Shown piece by piece: positions 36,189 to 45,346 of a stretch of DNA of 64,000 nt. The translations under genes and the position numbers were made by a program. The DNA comes from Tenacibaculum piscium. GTDB taxonomy: Bacteria > Bacteroidota > Bacteroidia > Flavobacteriales > Flavobacteriaceae. How positions within the stretch are numbered: position 1 is the stretch's first letter; each line of letters begins with the position of its first letter. The stretch spans positions 2,650-66,649 of the forward strand of contig NZ_JAJGWT010000005.1 in assembly GCF_021390715.1 (NCBI RefSeq), written 5' to 3'. The notes under the pieces are model-generated. The model had not been told where the DNA came from and searched no databases. It saw only the letters and a list, made by a program, of their open reading frames with translations.

Positions 36189-37646
36189 ATGACAAACAAA
36201 AATTTATTAACTATTATAAAGAACTCTCCAAGTATTGAAATTTTACGCTCAAAAAATAGAGAACTAATATTTGATTTTTTTTTGACAGTCTTTAATAATG
36301 ATAATAAAAGAAACATATCTTCTGAAGATATTATTTTATCACTAACTGATTTTTTAAATCATCACAATATTCACTTAGAAGAAACTGAAAGTAATACCAT
36401 AGATACTCTCGAAATTAAAGCGAAAAATGCCATTAAAAATTGGACAAATAAAGGATTCTTAACAAACTATAAAAATGAAAATGGTGATGTATTCTATGAA
36501 TTATCAACACATACGAATAAAACTATTAACTGGATTTATAGCTTAGAAAAAAAAGAGTTTGTAGGTGCTGAATCAAAATTTAAAGATATTTTTAATAAAC
36601 TGAAAGAATTAGTTGAATTTACCAATGAAGATGTCGATAAACGAATAGAAATATTAGAAGATAAAAAACTTAAAATTGAACAAGAAATACAACAACTTAA
36701 AATTGGTGAAGATGTAAAAATATTTGAAACTCATGAAATAATCCCAAGATTTCAAGAACTAACATATTCAGCAAAAGAACTCCTCTCCGACTTTAAAGAA
36801 GTAGAAGATAATTTTAAAAATATCACAAAAGATATTTACAAAAAACAAACCAATCAAAATTTTACTAAAAAAGATATTCTAACCTTCACTTTTGATGCTC
36901 TTGATGATTTAAAAGAAAGCCATCAAGGTAAAAATTTTTACGCCTTCTGGAAGTTCTTAATAGATACCAATTTTCAAGAAGAATGGAATGTTTTAACAGA
37001 TGAATTATACCAAACATTAACCGATAAAAATATCCCAATTAATGATGCTTTTTTAAAAAATATGAAAAGCTATCTTCACGCATCAGGGAATAAAGTGTAT
37101 CAAGCTAATGATAAAATGGCAGATAAATTAAGCCGTATTATTCGAGAAAATGACAATTCTGATAAAAAAAATTCTAAAAAAGTAATTCTACAAATAAAAA
37201 ATTACTTAACTCAAATTAGTGAAACTAAAAAAACACCTGATTTATCAATAGCAATAGAATTAAATAATAACATCCATATTCCATTTGATAAACGCTTAAC
37301 ACTTCAACAAAAAAAAGAAATTACCTACAATAAAAAACCAAAAATTGCGGAAAATGATATTTCTAAATCTGTTCAATTAAATAAAATTTTTAAAGAAAAT
37401 GCTATAGACAAAAATTTATTAAGAAAAAGAATAAAAGAAATGCTAAGATTAAAATCTCAAATAACACTTCATGAAATTATTGAAAATTATGGAGGAATTA
37501 AAAAAGGATTACCAGAAATTTTTGGATATTTTGGAATAATAAAAGATTTTACTCATAGTTTTAACTCCGAAAAACAACAAGAAATTATCTTTGATAAAAT
37601 CAATAATAAAGCTATTAAAATCCCTGAAATAATTTTAATTAAATGA
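36189..37646 (+). CDS. jetA: Wadjet JetA (DUF3375, kleisin subunit)
   Basis: Kleisin (MukF-like) subunit of the Wadjet SMC complex, which detects circular plasmids by loop extrusion. The N-terminus SPSIEILRSKNRELIFDFFLTVF is characteristic of DUF3375; winged-helix features follow (about 40-110), then a coiled-coil middle (about 140-220: DKRIEILEDKKLKIEQEIQQ) and a C-terminal winged helix that binds the SMC head. Length 485 is normal for JetA. The stop overlaps the jetB start by four bases (ATGA). The operon is very AT-rich. Placement between a metabolic pair and recG suggests acquisition at this locus. Confidence 0.9.
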   Translation: MTNKNLLTIIKNSPSIEILRSKNRELIFDFFLTVFNNDNKRNISSEDIILSLTDFLNHHNIHLEETESNTIDTLEIKAKNAIKNWTNKGFLTNYKNENGDVFYELSTHTNKTINWIYSLEKKEFVGAESKFKDIFNKLKELVEFTNEDVDKRIEILEDKKLKIEQEIQQLKIGEDVKIFETHEIIPRFQELTYSAKELLSDFKEVEDNFKNITKDIYKKQTNQNFTKKDILTFTFDALDDLKESHQGKNFYAFWKFLIDTNFQEEWNVLTDELYQTLTDKNIPINDAFLKNMKSYLHASGNKVYQANDKMADKLSRIIRENDNSDKKNSKKVILQIKNYLTQISETKKTPDLSIAIELNNNIHIPFDKRLTLQQKKEITYNKKPKIAENDISKSVQLNKIFKENAIDKNLLRKRIKEMLRLKSQITLHEIIENYGGIKKGLPEIFGYFGIIKDFTHSFNSEKQQEIIFDKINNKAIKIPEIILIK

Positions 37647-38227
37647 AGCAACTACACCAAAATATAAAACCATACTCAAAAGCAATCGTTAAACTATTAA
37701 AAGGAACTGTTAATAAAAATGAAAGTATTTGGAATGACATTTTAAATTATCAAAATGAAATTCAAGAATATATTAGCAAAATTGGACTAGAACTTATTGT
37801 AAAAGAAAATGATGGATTCGCTTTCTTAAAACAATTTGAAATTGATAACGATAACAATACTATTGGAATCGCCTCAAGACGACAAGTAGGTTTTGAAACT
37901 AGCATCGTTTTAGTAATACTTCGGCAAATAATAGAAGAATTTGAAAATGATCCAACCGATTTTACCGTTACAGAAAAATATATAACAGCATCCGAACTAA
38001 AAGAACAAATTAGCTTTTTTATCCCTGAAAATTATAATACAATTAAAGTTTTAAAAAACATTGAAACTTATATTAAAAATGTAGAAAAATTAGGTTACCT
38101 AAAAGAAATTGGAACAAGTGAAAATGAAAAAAAATATATAATTCATAAAATAATCAAAGAAAAAATTACACTTGACATTTTAAATGAATTTAAAGAAAAT
38201 TTAAAAAATTATGTGGAAACTATTTAA
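37643..38227 (+). CDS. jetB: Wadjet JetB (DUF4194, KITE subunit)
   Basis: The 194-residue MukE-like KITE subunit of Wadjet, bridging the kleisin and the SMC ATPase. Its DUF4194 core spans IGIASRRQVGFETSIVLVIL, RQIIEEFENDPTDFTVTEKY and the winged-helix ELKEQISFFIPE, with NVEKLGYLKEIG near the end. The order jetA-jetB-jetC-jetD is the standard one. It overlaps jetA by 4 bases and jetC by 17, which keeps subunit synthesis coupled. Confidence 0.92.
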   Translation: MKQLHQNIKPYSKAIVKLLKGTVNKNESIWNDILNYQNEIQEYISKIGLELIVKENDGFAFLKQFEIDNDNNTIGIASRRQVGFETSIVLVILRQIIEEFENDPTDFTVTEKYITASELKEQISFFIPENYNTIKVLKNIETYIKNVEKLGYLKEIGTSENEKKYIIHKIIKEKITLDILNEFKENLKNYVETI

Positions 38228-41200
38228 TACAAGCGCAGATAAAGCTGGATTCAGACTTCAATATATGGAAATATATAATTGGGGAACTTTTGATAATCAA
38301 ATATTTAAGATTGAACCAAAGGGAAATAATTCTTTATTAACAGGTGCTAACGGTTCTGGTAAAACAACTTTTATAGATGCCTTACTAACACTTTTAGTTC
38401 CTTTAAAAAGTGATAGATTTTATAATCAATCTTCTGGTGTTCAAAAAAAAGGCGACAGAAGTGAAGAAAGTTATGTCCTTGGGCATTACGGAGATATTCA
38501 AAAAGAAGGAGATTTAAGCACTACATCGCAAAAACTTAGAGATAAAACGACTTATTCTGTTCTTCTAGCTTCATTCTCCAATACGGATGAAAAAATAATT
38601 ACACTATTTCAAGTTCGAAGTTTTTCAAACGGAATGATGAAAAGAACCTTCGGAATTGCCTATAAAACACTAAATATCACATCGGACTTTAGCGATTTTG
38701 ATGCAAAAGGAAATTGGAAAAAACGCCTCGATAAACGTCATAATACATCTCAAAAAAAATGGATTGAATATTATGATAGTCCTAAAAAATATGCCGAAAG
38801 ATTATATAAACAATTTGGTATGCTTTCCATAAAAGCACTAAGTCTTTTTAATCAAACAGTAGGAATTAAGGTTTTAGGAGATTTAGACGAATTTATTAAA
38901 ACCAATATGCTCGAAAAAAGAGATACTGAAAATGAGTATAATCAATTAAAAAGTAGCTTTACCACATTAATAAATACCAAAAATGATATTGATAAAGCAA
39001 CAGAACAAATAAAACAACTTGAACCAATAAATTCAATTGCAAATCAACTTGAAAACATTAATATTCAACTAGAAAAAACACAAGAAAATAAAGAAAAATC
39101 AGTCTTTTGGTTTGCTCAAAAAGGATTAAAATTAGCCGATACAGAAAGTGATATTATAAATATTAAAATTGAAGAAATTGATGAAGAAATTAAAATATTA
39201 AAAGAAAATAAAATTGATTTAGAAAGTAAAAAAACTGATTTACAAGTCCAAATTAAGTCTGATGAAGTTGGAAGGCAAATTGAAGATTTAGAAAAAGAAA
39301 TTAAAAGAATTGAAAAATTAAGAAATTCAAGAAAAGAGAAATCTGACGAGTACAACCAATTAGCACAAATTTTAAATTATCCTATAAATTGTGATGAAAA
39401 AACATTTAAAAACTCCAAAACTCTAGCTCAAGAAAAAAAAGCAAAAATTAAAACTGAAATTGACACACTCAATAAAAGCCTAAGAGATGCGGAAAGGAAA
39501 GAAGAAGATATAAAAATTGAGCTTGAAAAAGCAATTAAAACTATAAAATATTTACAAAATAATAACAATAATATAACAGGCGATTCAGCAAGAATTAGAG
39601 AACAAATACTTATTAATGTTGGAGCTTCTAAAGATGAAATTCCTTTTATTGGCGAATTAATAAAAGTAGATGATTTAGAATGGGAAGCATCAATTGAAAA
39701 GGTTTTACATAATTTTGCCTTGCGATTAATCGTTCCTGAAAAATATTATCAAGAAGTTAATAAATACGTAAATAACACCAATTTAAAAGGAAAAATAATT
39801 TACGAACGTTACAAAGATTTTACCTCTCTAAAAAATTTACAGAATTATTCAAAGAATAAAAATCTCTTAATTAATAAAATTAGTTTTAAATCTAATAGTA
39901 AATATATTGATTGGATTGAAGAACGTATAAGCAACCAATTTAATTACACTTGCGCAGACAATCTTTTAGAATTTAACTCTTTAGAAAAAGCTATTACAAA
40001 AAAAGGATTAATTAAAAGAAAAGGAAGTCATGAAAAAGATGATAGAAAATATAGCTCCAATAGAAATAACTTTGTATTAGGTTGGGATAATAAAGATAAA
40101 ATAAACTACTGGAAAACAATATTTAAAGATTTACAAGATAACGAAAAAGAACAAATAAAGTTAATCCGAGAAATTGATAAAAAAATTAAATCTATTGCTA
40201 TACTAGAAGAAAATTTATCTGATTTACGCAAGCTATTTACAAAATTTGATGAAATAGATTGGAAAACGTATGCAAATCAAAATCAAGAAAAAAAAGAACT
40301 AAAAAAGAGACTTGAAAATACAAATGACAAAGTAAAAGCTCTTCAAGAACAATTAAAAAACACCCAAAATAATTTAGCTAAAACCGAAAAAGAAATTGAT
40401 ACTCAAAAAGATGCAAAACGAAATGAAAACACCAAATTAAATGAAGCCAAAGCACAAATAACTTCTCATTCTACTTTATTAAATCAAGTATCTGAAAATA
40501 AACCTGATGTAATTGACTTGATTAATCTTGAAGAAAATAATGTAATTCTTAAAGAAATTAATTATACTAATTTTTCAGTAACTCAAAAAACTTTTCAAAA
40601 AAATATTAGCGATCAAAATGAAAAATTAAACAAAGATAAAAATAACTTAAACATAAAAGTAAGTTCTAAAATAAATGCTTTTAAAAATCCATCAGAAGAA
40701 ATTTTAAAAAAATATAAATCTTGGCACGCTGATGTTAATCAACTTTCAACATCATTAGAATTTATCAGTGAATATCAAAAAAAATACAACAATTTAATAA
40801 AAGAAGACTTACCTAGTTTTGAAAGTAAATTCAATAAACATCTACAAACAACAATTGAAGACAAAGTAGCGATTTTTAAAAATTTCTTTAATCAATGGTC
40901 TGAAGATATTAAAGAAAATATCAGTTCTTTAAACAATTCACTTAAAGCTATAGATTTTAATAATCATCCTACAACAAGCTACATTCAACTGAAAGCTCAA
41001 AATAAAAAAACAGCTGATATAACAGAATTTAAAGCGTTATTAGAAAATGCAATTCCAAATTTTAAAGAATTTGACAAATCAATAGATGCAAGAAAAAATC
41101 ATTTCAATAATAATATTAAGCCATTTATAAAACAGCTTGAAAACGAAAAATGGCGAGAAAAAACGACGGATGTTCGCTCTTGGTTTGAATACAATGCAGA

Positions 41201-41594
41201 AGAAATTAACAGAGAAACCAATCACAGAATAAAAACCTATACAGGAATGGGGCAACTCTCTGGTGGAGAAAAAGCACAATTAACCTATACTATATTAGCT
41301 TCTGCGATAGCATATCAGTTTGGATTAACCAAAGAAGGCAATTCTTTTCGTTTTATCGCCATTGATGAAGCGTTTAAAGCACAAGATGAAGAAAAAGCAA
41401 AATATCTTATTAATTTATGTAAACAACTTCATTTACAGCTATTAGTAGTAACGCCTAGCGATAATATTCATATTGTTGAAAATGATATTTCTTTTGTTCA
41501 TTATATAGAAAGAAGAGATAATAAAATTTCTTGGCTCTACGATATGCCTATTGAAAAATTTCAAGAGGAGAAATTAAAATATATTGCCAAATGA
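38211..41594 (+). CDS. jetC: Wadjet JetC (MukB-like SMC ATPase)
   Basis: The DNA-translocating SMC subunit, 1127 residues. Walker A TGANGSGKTTFID (Lys51) opens the head domain. Long coiled coils run roughly 250-450 and 640-900, with a hinge-like region about 455-640. The C-terminal half of the head has the signature LSGGE (1016-1020) and Walker B FIAIDEAF (Asp1052, Glu1053). It closely follows the classical SMC/MukB layout. Length and motifs are intact, so the system should be active. It overlaps jetD by four bases. Confidence 0.93.
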   Translation: MWKLFNTSADKAGFRLQYMEIYNWGTFDNQIFKIEPKGNNSLLTGANGSGKTTFIDALLTLLVPLKSDRFYNQSSGVQKKGDRSEESYVLGHYGDIQKEGDLSTTSQKLRDKTTYSVLLASFSNTDEKIITLFQVRSFSNGMMKRTFGIAYKTLNITSDFSDFDAKGNWKKRLDKRHNTSQKKWIEYYDSPKKYAERLYKQFGMLSIKALSLFNQTVGIKVLGDLDEFIKTNMLEKRDTENEYNQLKSSFTTLINTKNDIDKATEQIKQLEPINSIANQLENINIQLEKTQENKEKSVFWFAQKGLKLADTESDIINIKIEEIDEEIKILKENKIDLESKKTDLQVQIKSDEVGRQIEDLEKEIKRIEKLRNSRKEKSDEYNQLAQILNYPINCDEKTFKNSKTLAQEKKAKIKTEIDTLNKSLRDAERKEEDIKIELEKAIKTIKYLQNNNNNITGDSARIREQILINVGASKDEIPFIGELIKVDDLEWEASIEKVLHNFALRLIVPEKYYQEVNKYVNNTNLKGKIIYERYKDFTSLKNLQNYSKNKNLLINKISFKSNSKYIDWIEERISNQFNYTCADNLLEFNSLEKAITKKGLIKRKGSHEKDDRKYSSNRNNFVLGWDNKDKINYWKTIFKDLQDNEKEQIKLIREIDKKIKSIAILEENLSDLRKLFTKFDEIDWKTYANQNQEKKELKKRLENTNDKVKALQEQLKNTQNNLAKTEKEIDTQKDAKRNENTKLNEAKAQITSHSTLLNQVSENKPDVIDLINLEENNVILKEINYTNFSVTQKTFQKNISDQNEKLNKDKNNLNIKVSSKINAFKNPSEEILKKYKSWHADVNQLSTSLEFISEYQKKYNNLIKEDLPSFESKFNKHLQTTIEDKVAIFKNFFNQWSEDIKENISSLNNSLKAIDFNNHPTTSYIQLKAQNKKTADITEFKALLENAIPNFKEFDKSIDARKNHFNNNIKPFIKQLENEKWREKTTDVRSWFEYNAEEINRETNHRIKTYTGMGQLSGGEKAQLTYTILASAIAYQFGLTKEGNSFRFIAIDEAFKAQDEEKAKYLINLCKQLHLQLLVVTPSDNIHIVENDISFVHYIERRDNKISWLYDMPIEKFQEEKLKYIAK

Positions 41595-42739
41595 TACATC
41601 CAAAAGAAATAAAAATAAAAGCTCAAAGAAAATATAAAAATTATCTTCAAGCGATTATAAATGAAGAAAATATTTTTCCTTTAGATATTATTGGCAATAA
41701 AAAACCTAGCAATTCAATATCTGAATTTAACAAAGAGCTAAAAGAACTTATTCTTTCATCAAAAGAAAAAAAAGGATTTGGTTATAGTATTAGCTACAAT
41801 AAACGAAAAACAAAAATATTAGGAACACAAAGCCTTCCTTCAAGTATTTATTTTGAAACTAAACACGATTTTGAAAAATATCTTAATATTCAAAAAGAGG
41901 TAAATCAATTTAAAATAGATTATCAAAATATATTAAAACACTTTCCTGAACTTCTATTTTGGATAGAAAAATACCCAAATAAAGTAATTGATAATTCGGA
42001 AAAATGGTCTGATATTTTAAAAGTATGCGAGTACTTTAAAGCCAATCCGAAACCAAATTTATTTATCCGAGAATTACCTATAACTCTCCACACAAAATTT
42101 ATAGAAGGAAATAGAGCTATATTAAAAGAGTTGCTTGATATTATCATAAATCCTTTTATCAATAAAGACAAAACAAAATTTGAAAAGCGTTTTAATTTAA
42201 AATATAGCGAACCTTTAATTCGTTTTAAAATTCTAGATTCAAAAATAAGTAAACATTATTTTTCGGGAATAAATGATATTTCAATTCCAATAAATCAGTT
42301 TAACGCTATAAATTTAAACTTTGAAAAGGTCATTATTGTAGAAAATAAAACAAATTTGCACACCATTGCTTTGACACTTCCTGAAATGGAAAAAACAATT
42401 GTAATTTTTGGTAGTGGATTTAAAATTGAAAACTTAAAAAATGCTACATGGCTAAATAAAAGCGAAATTTTATATTGGGGAGATTTAGATGTTCAGGGCT
42501 TTGAAATTTTATCTCAAATGAGAAATTATTTCCCAAAAACAAAAAGTTTTCTTATGGATGAAACTACATTTGATAAATTCTTTGAAAATGATAACGGAAC
42601 TTTATCAAATGTAAATATTTCTTTAAATTTAACTGAAAAAGAAATGATTATTTACAAAAAAATAAAGAAAAATAATTGGAGGTTAGAACAGGAAAAGATT
42701 CCGTTAGAATATGTTAAAAAAGAAATAAATAAAAACTAA
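41591..42739 (+). CDS. jetD: Wadjet JetD (DUF3322-DUF2220, Toprim nuclease)
   Basis: The nuclease subunit that cleaves plasmid DNA after the SMC complex stalls. The N-terminal DUF3322 arm (about 1-190) leads to a DUF2220 Toprim domain: IIVENKTNLHTIAL with Glu251, and YWGDLDVQGFEIL with Asp298 and Asp300, the metal-binding acidic residues. All three are present. Length 382 is normal. The gene ends 54 bases before the convergent recG gene, with a 20-bp AT palindrome between. Confidence 0.92.
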   Translation: MIHPKEIKIKAQRKYKNYLQAIINEENIFPLDIIGNKKPSNSISEFNKELKELILSSKEKKGFGYSISYNKRKTKILGTQSLPSSIYFETKHDFEKYLNIQKEVNQFKIDYQNILKHFPELLFWIEKYPNKVIDNSEKWSDILKVCEYFKANPKPNLFIRELPITLHTKFIEGNRAILKELLDIIINPFINKDKTKFEKRFNLKYSEPLIRFKILDSKISKHYFSGINDISIPINQFNAINLNFEKVIIVENKTNLHTIALTLPEMEKTIVIFGSGFKIENLKNATWLNKSEILYWGDLDVQGFEILSQMRNYFPKTKSFLMDETTFDKFFENDNGTLSNVNISLNLTEKEMIIYKKIKKNNWRLEQEKIPLEYVKKEINKN

Positions 42740-42793: not shown

Positions 42794-45346
42794 TTAACTA
42801 ATATTACTCCAAAGCCCGCTTGATTTTTGCAGTTGCGTATAAACTTTTAATAGATTTGCATTTTCAGGTTTCGAAAAACTAGCATCATCTTCTAAAACAG
42901 CGATTGCCGTTTGACGGGCTTTATGTAGAATTGCGGTATCTTTTACCACATCGGCAATTTTTAGGTTTAATACGCCACTTTGTTGCGTTCCCATAATATT
43001 TCCAGGACCTCGAAGTTTTAAATCTACCTCAGCAATTTTAAAACCATCAGTAGTATCAACCATGGTTTGCAAACGGGTTTTGCTATCGGATGATAATTTA
43101 AAACTCGACAATAAAATACAATAACTTTGCGATGCGCCACGCCCTACTCTACCTCGTAATTGATGCAACTGACTCAAACCAAAACGTTCAGCACTTTCAA
43201 TAACCATTACCGATGCATTTGGCACATTTACACCAACTTCAATTACCGTAGTTGCCACCATTATTTGGGTTTCGCCTTTTATAAATCGATTCATTTCAAA
43301 TTCTTTATCGGCAGGTTTCATTTTTCCGTGAACAATGCTAATTTGATATTTTGGCGATGGAAAATCTCTCGAAATACTTTCATATCCATCCATTAAATCT
43401 TTATAATCCATCGCTTCCGATTCTTCAATTAACGGATACACCACATACGCCTGTCGCCCTTTGTTTATCTCATCTTTCAAAAATTTAAAAACTGATAAAC
43501 GATTACTATCAAAGCGATGTACGGTTTTAATTTCCTTACGCCCTGGCGGTAATTCATCAATTACTGAAATATCTAAATCACCATAAACCGACATCGCTAA
43601 AGTTCGTGGAATTGGCGTTGCTGTCATCACTAAAACATGTGGCGGAATTGATTTTTTTACTGTAACCGTAGGCAAACTATTTAAGGTTGCAATGATTCTT
43701 TTTGTTGTTTTATCTAGTATATTTTCAAGGCTATTTTCAGGCGAATTTAGAATTTTATTTTCATCTAATCGAACCACTTTATAACCGAATTCGGTTAAAA
43801 TTTCGGTACGCAAACGCATTGCTTCTTGCTGTTTTTCGGTCGTATGATATTTACCAATAACTTCTATAATTAGTTTTTTTTCAAGGCAGATAAAATCAAT
43901 TAAAAAATCTTCAATAAGATAATATCTTCGGAATTTAAAACCTGTTTTTTTATTATCTAAAACTTCCCACAAGGCTCTTTCAGCTTTTGATGTTGTATTT
44001 TTTCGTTTAAAAGCAATTTCTTTAATTAATTGATAAGATGCTGAATTTTCATCCTTATATTTTTGATGAAGATTTCTACCTTTTTCATTCAGAATTGCAG
44101 GCGGTTGATTTTTCTGCCATAATTTAGAACGCTGTGCGACTCCAAAGCGATGTTGCTCATCAATAATAGCAATCCCTAAGTTTTTAAAACAGACTTTATC
44201 TTCTAAAACAGCGTGTGTTCCTACTAAAATATGTATTGATTTATCTTCTAAACCTGTATGAATTTCACGTCTTTTTTTAATTCGTGTTGAACCCGTTAAT
44301 AATTCAACTTTTATCGTTGTTCCTTCTAAAAGTTCGGTAATTCCATTATAATGCTGAATTGCTAAAATTTCAGTTGGTGCCATAATAGTTGCCTGATAGC
44401 CGTTATCAATCGCAATTAACATGCTTAACAACGCCACAATTGTTTTTCCTGACCCAACATCGCCTTGCAATAAACGGTTCATGTGTTTGCCAGAACCAAC
44501 ATCTTTTCGAATTTCTTTTAACACTCTTTTTTGAGCATTTGTCAATTCAAAAGGTAATTTATTGGTGTAAAAATCAGTGAAATTATTGCCTATTTTTTCA
44601 AAAACAGCGCCTTTTATTTTTGATTTACGGATGCGTTTTTTCTGTAATAATTGAATTTGAATAAAAAATAATTCTTCAAATTTTAAGCGATATTGTGCTT
44701 TTGCTAATAATTCTTGACTCTTAGGAAAATGAATATTGAGTAAGGCTTCTTTTTTGGCTAATAAATTATTTTCTTCGGATAGATAATCTGGCAATGTTTC
44801 TGTTATCAAACTAAAATATTGCTCAAATAAATACTGAATAAATCCTCTTACTATTTTATTGGTAATTCCTTTATTCGCTAATTTTTCTGTCGATGGATAT
44901 ACGGGTTGCATGGCAGATTGAACATTACTTTTATGTTCTTTTACCGTTTCCATTTCTGGATGTGGCATATTTGCCCTACCGTTATACCAATTTAATTTCC
45001 CATAAATTACATACGGAACATCGGTTTTTAAGCTGTTTTTTATCCATTTAGCACCTTTAAACCACACCAAATCTAAAAAACCTGTGCCATCTGAAAAAGT
45101 AGCCACTAGCCTACTTCCTCGTTGTTGTTCAATTTCTTTAACGGCTGTTATTTTACCAACTATTTGAACCTCAGCAGTATTTTGAGCCAATTGTTGAATC
45201 GTATAAAACTGGGTTTTATCAATATAACGAAACGGAAAAAAGTGTAATAAATCATTACACGTTTTAATCCCTAATTCGGAATTTAACAATTCGGCACGGG
45301 CTACACTAACGCCTTTTATATATGTTATCGGGTGATTTAAATTCAT
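42794..45346 (-). CDS. recG: RecG branch-migration helicase with in-frame DUF559 nuclease insertion
   Basis: Replication-fork-reversal helicase. An N-terminal wedge/OB domain (about 1-215) precedes the motor: LLQGDVGSGKT (Lys301), DEQH (396-399), VMTATPIPRTLA, and QLRGRVGRG. The protein has 850 residues, about 150 more than usual. The excess sits between HRFGVAQRSKLWQKN (ending at residue 413) and SIPPHVLVMTATP (from 566). Residues 414-565 (positions 43649-44107) encode a DUF559/Vsr-like endonuclease: TTSKAERALWEVL, FKFRRYY, LIDFICLEKKLIIEVIGKYH (Asp484, Glu495), and EFGYKVVRLDENKIL. The RecG motifs on both sides are intact and in frame. Confidence 0.93.
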   Translation of the reverse strand: MNLNHPITYIKGVSVARAELLNSELGIKTCNDLLHFFPFRYIDKTQFYTIQQLAQNTAEVQIVGKITAVKEIEQQRGSRLVATFSDGTGFLDLVWFKGAKWIKNSLKTDVPYVIYGKLNWYNGRANMPHPEMETVKEHKSNVQSAMQPVYPSTEKLANKGITNKIVRGFIQYLFEQYFSLITETLPDYLSEENNLLAKKEALLNIHFPKSQELLAKAQYRLKFEELFFIQIQLLQKKRIRKSKIKGAVFEKIGNNFTDFYTNKLPFELTNAQKRVLKEIRKDVGSGKHMNRLLQGDVGSGKTIVALLSMLIAIDNGYQATIMAPTEILAIQHYNGITELLEGTTIKVELLTGSTRIKKRREIHTGLEDKSIHILVGTHAVLEDKVCFKNLGIAIIDEQHRFGVAQRSKLWQKNQPPAILNEKGRNLHQKYKDENSASYQLIKEIAFKRKNTTSKAERALWEVLDNKKTGFKFRRYYLIEDFLIDFICLEKKLIIEVIGKYHTTEKQQEAMRLRTEILTEFGYKVVRLDENKILNSPENSLENILDKTTKRIIATLNSLPTVTVKKSIPPHVLVMTATPIPRTLAMSVYGDLDISVIDELPPGRKEIKTVHRFDSNRLSVFKFLKDEINKGRQAYVVYPLIEESEAMDYKDLMDGYESISRDFPSPKYQISIVHGKMKPADKEFEMNRFIKGETQIMVATTVIEVGVNVPNASVMVIESAERFGLSQLHQLRGRVGRGASQSYCILLSSFKLSSDSKTRLQTMVDTTDGFKIAEVDLKLRGPGNIMGTQQSGVLNLKIADVVKDTAILHKARQTAIAVLEDDASFSKPENANLLKVYTQLQKSSGLWSNIS
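43649..44107 (-). other. Inserted DUF559 (Vsr-like) endonuclease domain inside recG
   Basis: About 153 codons placed in the loop between RecG motifs II and III. The first ~50 residues (AILNEKGRNLHQKYKDENSA) are a linker; the nuclease core is ~455-530 with FRRYYLIEDFLIDFIC, IIEVIGKYHTTEKQQEAMRL and GYKVVRLDENKI. DUF559 proteins usually have an IE-x-DG pattern; here the Asp position is Ile497, so catalysis may be impaired. The ends do not carry intein splice residues (no Cys/Ser at the start, no HN at the end), so it should stay in the protein. Confidence 0.82.

Follow-up and report, generated by a model that had tools for sequence, protein, structure and literature searches.

A DUF559 nuclease segment in the RecG helicase of Tenacibaculum piscium, probably a decayed copy of an in-frame mobile element

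The recG gene of Tenacibaculum piscium is located on the minus strand at positions 42794-45346 of the 64,000-nucleotide stretch of contig NZ_JAJGWT010000005.1 that was analyzed here (the window), and encodes a protein of 850 amino acids (aa) in one uninterrupted open frame. This RecG carries an extra segment with a DUF559/Vsr-like nuclease domain, which is probably a decayed copy of a mobile element that inserts in frame, needs no splicing and is driven by that nuclease. The window RecG is not an isolated odd fusion: the same nuclease and linker were identified in frame in unrelated proteins of Bacteroidota. An earlier reading of the window, made without database searches (the sequence-only reading), had already pointed to the inserted domain; the many hosts, the hairpin ends and the link to a known homing endonuclease go beyond it.

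The insert in RecG and its counterparts in other proteins

The window protein passed the NCBIfam equivalog cut-off for RecG (882.3 bits versus 711) with a match split into two stretches, the best of which stopped at residue 419; in related RecG models the second part started at 563-565. It was the single RecG found in this genome, and the next-best matches were all inside one 1114-aa frame, which we take to be Mfd. Among the best 80 of 585 loci, the closest named RecG was that of Tenacibaculum finnmarkense (94% identity over the alignment). Empty RecG alleles such as RSKLWKKNELPPHILVMTATP set the limits of the in-frame insert at residues ~413 to 567 (~155 residues; 43646-44110, minus strand), between helicase motifs II and III. 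The sequence-only reading had placed an extra domain there, and its limits of 414-566 were too narrow by only one residue on each side. The alignment with the solved RecG of Thermotoga maritima has a gap at the same place. Because the other 38 inserts in the 80 named RecG loci all occupy the identical junction, in frame and stop-free, chance is excluded as the source of the window insert, and the extra DUF559 segment is confirmed as real. The predicted model of the whole RecG was weak (mean predicted local distance difference test score, pLDDT, 71; predicted template modelling score, pTM, 0.45; best PDB match 1gm5 with a root-mean-square deviation of 11) and therefore gave no reading on helicase geometry.

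On the minus strand, the insert starts with a decayed left end (residues 413-427; 44066-44110), which in most relatives is a hairpin-bearing inverted repeat and here has no hairpin above chance. It is followed by a linker (residues 428-446; 44009-44065), the counterpart of the linker common to inserts in other host proteins, and by the DUF559/Vsr-like nuclease domain (residues 447-546; 43709-44008). The right end (residues 553-567; 43646-43690) is decayed as well and reads LPTVTVKKS, versus the hairpin-encoded LPSGEVGGA of many relatives. Directly after the insert, the RecG flank PPHVLVMTATPIPRT with motif III (residues 568-582; 43601-43645) would be the nuclease target in empty alleles.

The nuclease domain matched PF04480 (DUF559) with an E-value of 2.8e-23 and 82.3 bits, compared to a gathering cut-off of 20.6. 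When a profile of 17 inserts was compared with solved structures (E-values up to 0.1), only two matches were obtained, the DUF559 protein 3hrl (8.6e-30) and the homing endonuclease I-Bth0305I (3r3p; 7.9e-8). The intact insert of locus L106 was modelled with a pLDDT of 83.6 and a pTM of 0.78, and a fold search with this model again gave 3hrl and 3r3p as best matches, the latter with an E-value of 3e-4 and a target TM score of 0.79-0.80; E. coli Vsr was found lower among the matches (0.07). By both approaches, the insert is homologous to the catalytic domain of the Vsr-like (EDxHD) homing endonuclease I-Bth0305I. This agrees with the DUF559/Vsr-like identity given by the sequence-only reading; the refuting case that it had named, a segment without a DUF559 match in a profile search, does not hold.

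In the alignment of 90 in-gene copies, D484, E495 and R513 (RecG numbering) were present in all, and D497 and H501 were each kept in 85. The window copy retains D484, E495, H501 and R513 and has Ile at 497, leaving its active site incomplete; Asp484, Glu495 and Ile497 had been named correctly beforehand. The other copies without Asp497 are those of T. finnmarkense (Asn), L132 (Asn), L095 (Glu) and the LeuS of the window's own genome (Ser).

This LeuS (locus L003, 4487-7855, on another contig) and RecG hold the only two DUF559 matches in the genome at E-values up to 1; its copy is decayed, with Ser for the catalytic Asp and a gap at the His. In the family, DUF559 was found at an E-value of 1e-5 in 161 of 397 genomes. 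All 58 loci with frames of at least 346 aa among the matches listed were surveyed together with the window genome's own LeuS, and the hosts of these 59 loci were LeuS (25), RecG (11), MetH (10), HemD (9, at the start), HisD (2, at the end) and IleS (2). One or two representatives per host were named with NCBIfam and Pfam and the remainder by conserved host peptides. In a sample of the phylum, DUF559 was present at 1e-20 in 151 of 395 genomes. Further hosts in this sample were IcmF-like mutases (two loci with partial sequence, 1437.5 and 1393.2 bits versus a cut-off of 1500; the one scanned with Pfam was above the mutase and MeaB cut-offs), RecB/UvrD-like helicases (two loci, under the NCBIfam and above the Pfam UvrD cut-offs), two Eco57I-type methylases and one M23 peptidase. 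A second LeuS insertion site was observed in L202 (identified by NCBIfam) and in L204 and L206 (by the same flanking peptide). The MetH gene of L036 carries the element twice, at separate sites; over 402 bases the DNA of these copies is 80% identical, and their left ends are nearly the same. Across different hosts, the nuclease is preceded by the linker pattern Y-x-T-A-R/N-P-S-x-Y-x-L-L-K-E. The search for the segment in unrelated proteins, as proposed in the sequence-only reading, thus found it in LeuS, IleS, MetH, HisD and IcmF-like and RecB-like proteins.

A tree of 108 nuclease domains (107 columns), in which many forks are open, separated the 90 inserts of RecG, LeuS, MetH, IleS and HisD from free-standing and HemD-fused DUF559 with a support of 94, just below the tool's star. 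The RecG inserts were on one side of a branch (77, weak), as were the MetH inserts (99); the LeuS inserts were not on one side of a branch in this tree.

Several variants were seen beside these copies. At the second MetH site, L037 and L042 have, in place of the full element found in other genomes, short segments in frame that encode hairpin-like peptides (SPLGGDLEAA and similar); these are either scars or nuclease-free versions. In LeuS, extra repeated end segments lie in frame beside the insert in L058 (direct-repeat score 39), and a tandem peptide of end segments does so in L057. A separate DUF559 lineage sits at the start of uroporphyrinogen-III synthase (L039, L050, L053, L059, L066, L067, L068, L070 and L076; host named from Pfam for L059 only). 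In L209 and L212, DUF559 lies within Eco57I-type methylases with DUF7149 and DUF7814, which may be true restriction enzymes or carry inserts.

Hairpin ends, insertion site and inheritance

The inserts of relatives start and finish with G+C-rich peptides (for example PPQSSQRED and LPSGEVGGA) that are translated palindromes, and the two ends are imperfect inverted copies of each other. With the nine HemD loci excluded, no more than 5 of 100 shuffles equalled the match of the left end to the reversed right end in 66 of 89 copies (63 when repeated with fresh shuffles), compared to 10 of 89 for the direct orientation. For the RecG inserts, no more than 3 of 60 shuffles equalled the left hairpin in 27 of 39 copies and the right hairpin in 31; the stems are mostly of 6-8 base pairs, with loops of 3-5 bases. 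In 39 in-gene copies from hosts other than RecG and HemD, no more than 2 of 40 shuffles equalled the left hairpin in 22 copies and the right hairpin in 23.

Paired base changes were counted in named RecG inserts, the window being in neither set, with rows aligned by their best stem, which favours pairing. In the right hairpin (35 of 38 inserts, 20 distinct; L092, L095 and L132 omitted), six of seven pairs had changes on both sides versus 1.9 in shuffles, and 12 cells were doubly changed versus 2.7; none of 500 shuffles was as high in either count. Of all these signs, the pair count of the right hairpin is the most robust. In the left hairpin (33 of 38, 29 distinct; L092, L094, L095, L104 and L132 omitted), 25 cells were changed on both sides versus 6.0 in shuffles (0/500 as high). 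Sliding the partner reduced the left count to 1-8 cells and abolished the signal at the right end too. Based on these paired changes, the palindromes seem to be preserved at the level of DNA or RNA even within coding sequence.

Hairpins also adjoin free-standing DUF559 genes, exceeding all 40 shuffles upstream of eight and downstream of seven of nine genes; a strong inverted repeat uniting both flanks was found for one of the nine (L019, 61 columns). In L015, L017, L031 and others, free-standing DUF559 lies between intergenic hairpin repeats (CCACCTCGTCTTC..., CCACTCCTCC...), with further copies close by.

The window copy differs from these. Its left-end hairpin score was reached by 60 of 60 shuffles and its right-end score by 16 of 60, and no inverted repeat of its ends was detected (17 of 100 shuffles reached the score). 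In the 108-domain tree, it shares with the T. finnmarkense insert a stem of 1.23 changes per column. All five copies without Asp497 likewise have no clear right hairpin. The window insert thus looks like a decayed copy that has lost Asp497 and both hairpins, and the genome appears to hold only fossils of the element, this one and the decayed LeuS copy. The sequence-only reading had suggested a dead, tolerated nuclease, which is supported by the D497I change, the missing hairpins and the very long branch. G131, of the same genus, carries a LeuS insert that looks intact; its RecG frame, at 705 aa, is too short to contain the insert.

RecG was found in 136 of 140 genomes of the family, and the insert in five of these (G000, G006, G125, G132 and G061; all five frames, of 848-862 aa, were read). 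Most RecG proteins of the family thus have no such segment, and the possibility, considered in the sequence-only reading, that all of them carry it does not hold. In four of the 136 genomes the RecG frame was short (302-646 aa), which makes its length uninformative; none of them had a DUF559 match in RecG, three having no match and one a single match in MetH among the matches listed. RecG frames of 722-786 aa were considered as half-lost inserts and rejected: 16 were read without finding an insert, 13 having the plain junction and three short scars. The seventeenth long frame, of 862 aa (G061), holds the insert. The insert is present in 38 of the 80 named RecG loci and absent from 42. This share is biased, because one of the six search peptides lies within the insert and the loci kept were the best 80 of 585, so that 5/136 is the better figure. 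On a tree of these 80 RecG and that of the window, insert presence changes at least 14 times, nine of which are forced by starred branches. Ten of the 42 empty sites exceed the plain form in length. In Tenacibaculum sp. M341, the scar retains most of the right end of the insert and encodes almost the same residues; the other scars are less telling and could partly be ordinary loop variation.

The insert is placed immediately ahead of a highly conserved host stretch. The conservation percentile of the right flank was 99 in RecG, 97 in MetH and 91 in LeuS (81, 7 and 24 rows; L036, L057, L060 and one more MetH row not fitting the text pattern were omitted), compared to 90, 83 and 53 for the left flank. 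In IleS it was 88, from two rows only. In RecG, 16 residues from 571 onward are in the 99th percentile. We take the stretches after the inserts to be motif III in RecG, TTRPDT of the editing domain in LeuS and the DxHxxG cobalamin motif in MetH. Homing nucleases choose sites at conserved motifs.

Exchange between lineages was assessed with a residue-matched synonymous test. Raw synonymous counts, lower in the insert than in the host in 580 of 741 pairs, were discarded since the pairs are non-independent and the residue make-up is unequal. The inserts of T. gallaicum and T. larymnensis are separated by 16 synonymous differences, compared to 40.4 expected from the same residues in the flanks (p 8e-7), and the synonymous dip falls on the insert. 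At Tenacibaculum locus L135, a long match turned out to be just a neighbouring helicase gene, presumably PriA. A phage origin was rejected as well: two unannotated phage records had 32-34% identity over 77% of the query, and none matched over 80%.

Proposed mechanism and alternative explanations

The anatomy of the inserts fits a mobile element that would use the frame of its host for expression, without splicing. Its layout would be a hairpin end, the linker, the Vsr-like (DUF559) nuclease and a second hairpin end, all translated within the host protein. The nuclease would cut the DNA of empty alleles beside the conserved host motif, and repair from the occupied allele would copy the element into the cut site (homing). 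Rare off-target events with the hairpin ends may seed new host genes. Because the insertion is in a loop and in frame, neither an intein nor an intron would be necessary. In a lineage fixed for the element, the nuclease would decay and the segment would either stay or be deleted in frame. On present sequence comparisons, an element moved by its own nuclease, through putative cutting and homing, is the best reading. A tentative extension, possible rather than probable, is that such elements form a distinct class of bacterial mobile elements, in which a Vsr-like nuclease between coding hairpins would home into essential genes and stay permanently in the protein, without intron, intein or separate transposase, the hairpins being the nuclease's own substrate and enabling jumps between unrelated genes.

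Of the two origins offered by the sequence-only reading, a selfish insertion is favoured over a helicase-nuclease fusion, because the same domain and linker occur in unrelated enzymes, the ends form hairpins and presence is patchy with empty sites. That the domain serves the host, in a RecG helicase-nuclease or as a useful regulator of its hosts, seems very improbable. Helicase motif residues are indeed invariant despite the insert (49-row RecG alignment), and the nuclease is under purifying selection (ratio of non-synonymous to synonymous changes, dN/dS, mostly 0.07-0.15 between pairs of intact inserts); however, the same domain is found in tRNA synthetases, methionine synthase and a CoA mutase, which have no common DNA task, and most RecG proteins of the family do without it. 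It is unlikely that other machinery acting in trans moves a hairpin-ended segment in which the nuclease is cargo or a mere stabiliser. The hairpins are apparently kept as palindromes independently of the encoded protein, and free-standing DUF559 genes lie between hairpins as well, both as expected for such a passenger; but the retention of catalytic residues in 85-90 of 90 copies and the joint loss of Asp497 and a clear right hairpin in five copies point to the nuclease as driver. Removal of the segment after transcription or translation (intron, intein or ribosome bypass) can practically be dismissed: the end hairpins could pair in RNA, but the 38 named RecG inserts and that of the window are all in frame and stop-free, and the window segment reads without His-Asn ahead of its right junction.

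Several observations weigh against an actively homing element. Distances between inserts correlate with those between hosts (Mantel r 0.77 for 32 rows, with seven long or decayed rows omitted; 0.58 for all 39), which points to mostly vertical inheritance with few signs of recent exchange. Only 3 of 19 RecG pairs, which are non-independent and include T. gallaicum/T. larymnensis, were low in the insert at p<0.001; most were near 1 and one was higher (p 0.008). None of the LeuS, MetH and other-host pairs listed was lower at p<0.01. In the left hairpin, 43 of 500 shuffles had at least as many double-changed pairs (5/7) and 488 had at least as many pair types, which are not in excess, so that the evidence there rests on cell counts, which kinship among rows can raise. 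No significant inverted repeat was found in 23 of 89 copies (26 in the repeat), some with an intact nuclease. Dispersed ends of the strict RecG type were expected and not found: the seven of 16 genomes with such an end have it in one place each, by coordinates always at the RecG insert. An insertion near an active-site loop would also look like a homing choice of site. Much of this would be expected if each host gene had been invaded long ago and the insert only inherited, decayed or lost since: inserts of one host gene are mostly one lineage that tracks the host, and most pairs have no excess similarity. Such a history is nevertheless improbable, as pure decay would not keep catalytic residues and hairpins, the T. 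gallaicum/T. larymnensis insert is far too similar given its flanks, and one MetH gene contains two copies.

The nuclease-driven element resembles known systems in part. Inteins with homing endonucleases are found in frame at conserved motifs of conserved proteins, are patchy, and their nuclease decays. The inserts are like them in in-frame insertion, conserved-motif sites, patchiness and nuclease decay; in contrast to inteins, no splicing domain is seen, no intein family was found in Pfam scans of the window insert, and the insert appears to be retained. With I-Bth0305I they have in common the catalytic domain, homologous by profile and fold, and the insertion beside conserved coding motifs. 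I-Bth0305I is placed among mobile-intron homing endonucleases and is long, with several domains, binding its target of nearly 60 base pairs as a dimer (PMC3943268), whereas the nuclease here stays in the host protein after a short linker, is read through in frame and has no intron or intein, no search aimed at introns having been made. Rickettsia palindromic elements (RPE) are described as palindromic sequences of about 150 base pairs, in frame in unrelated protein genes and with a conserved peptide (PMC10969869). Most intact copies, though not that of the window, share the palindromic ends and the in-frame position in unrelated proteins; unlike RPE, for which that excerpt describes no nuclease, the elements here are about 450 base pairs long and encode DUF559. 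Caulobacter VsrA, a predicted mismatch-repair endonuclease in which DUF559 is treated as Vsr-like (PMC12907096), and Neisseria NGO0050 (3hrl, a 104-residue chain) have the same Pfam family and fold as the insert, and neither is described in the accessible sources as an insert in another protein. No DUF559 insertions of this kind were found in titles and abstract openings of the open-access literature, which is not proof of absence.

Implications and the neighbouring Wadjet locus

The inserts suggest a solution in which an element enters, in frame and next to a conserved motif, a loop that tolerates it and is translated within an essential-type enzyme. This offers a testable way for proteins to acquire entire domains, and offers the DUF559 family a role beyond repair. 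As natural maps, the insertion sites show which loops of RecG, LeuS, IleS and MetH can take up about 150 residues. For annotation, they are a caution that a nuclease apparently fused to RecG or LeuS may be a selfish insert.

A Wadjet (JetABCD-like) defence system adjoins recG on the plus strand of the window (36189-42739). PADLOC scores were 1065.1 bits for JetC and 490.1 bits for JetD, and the frames at 36189-37646 and 37643-38227 were taken as JetA and JetB by position only.

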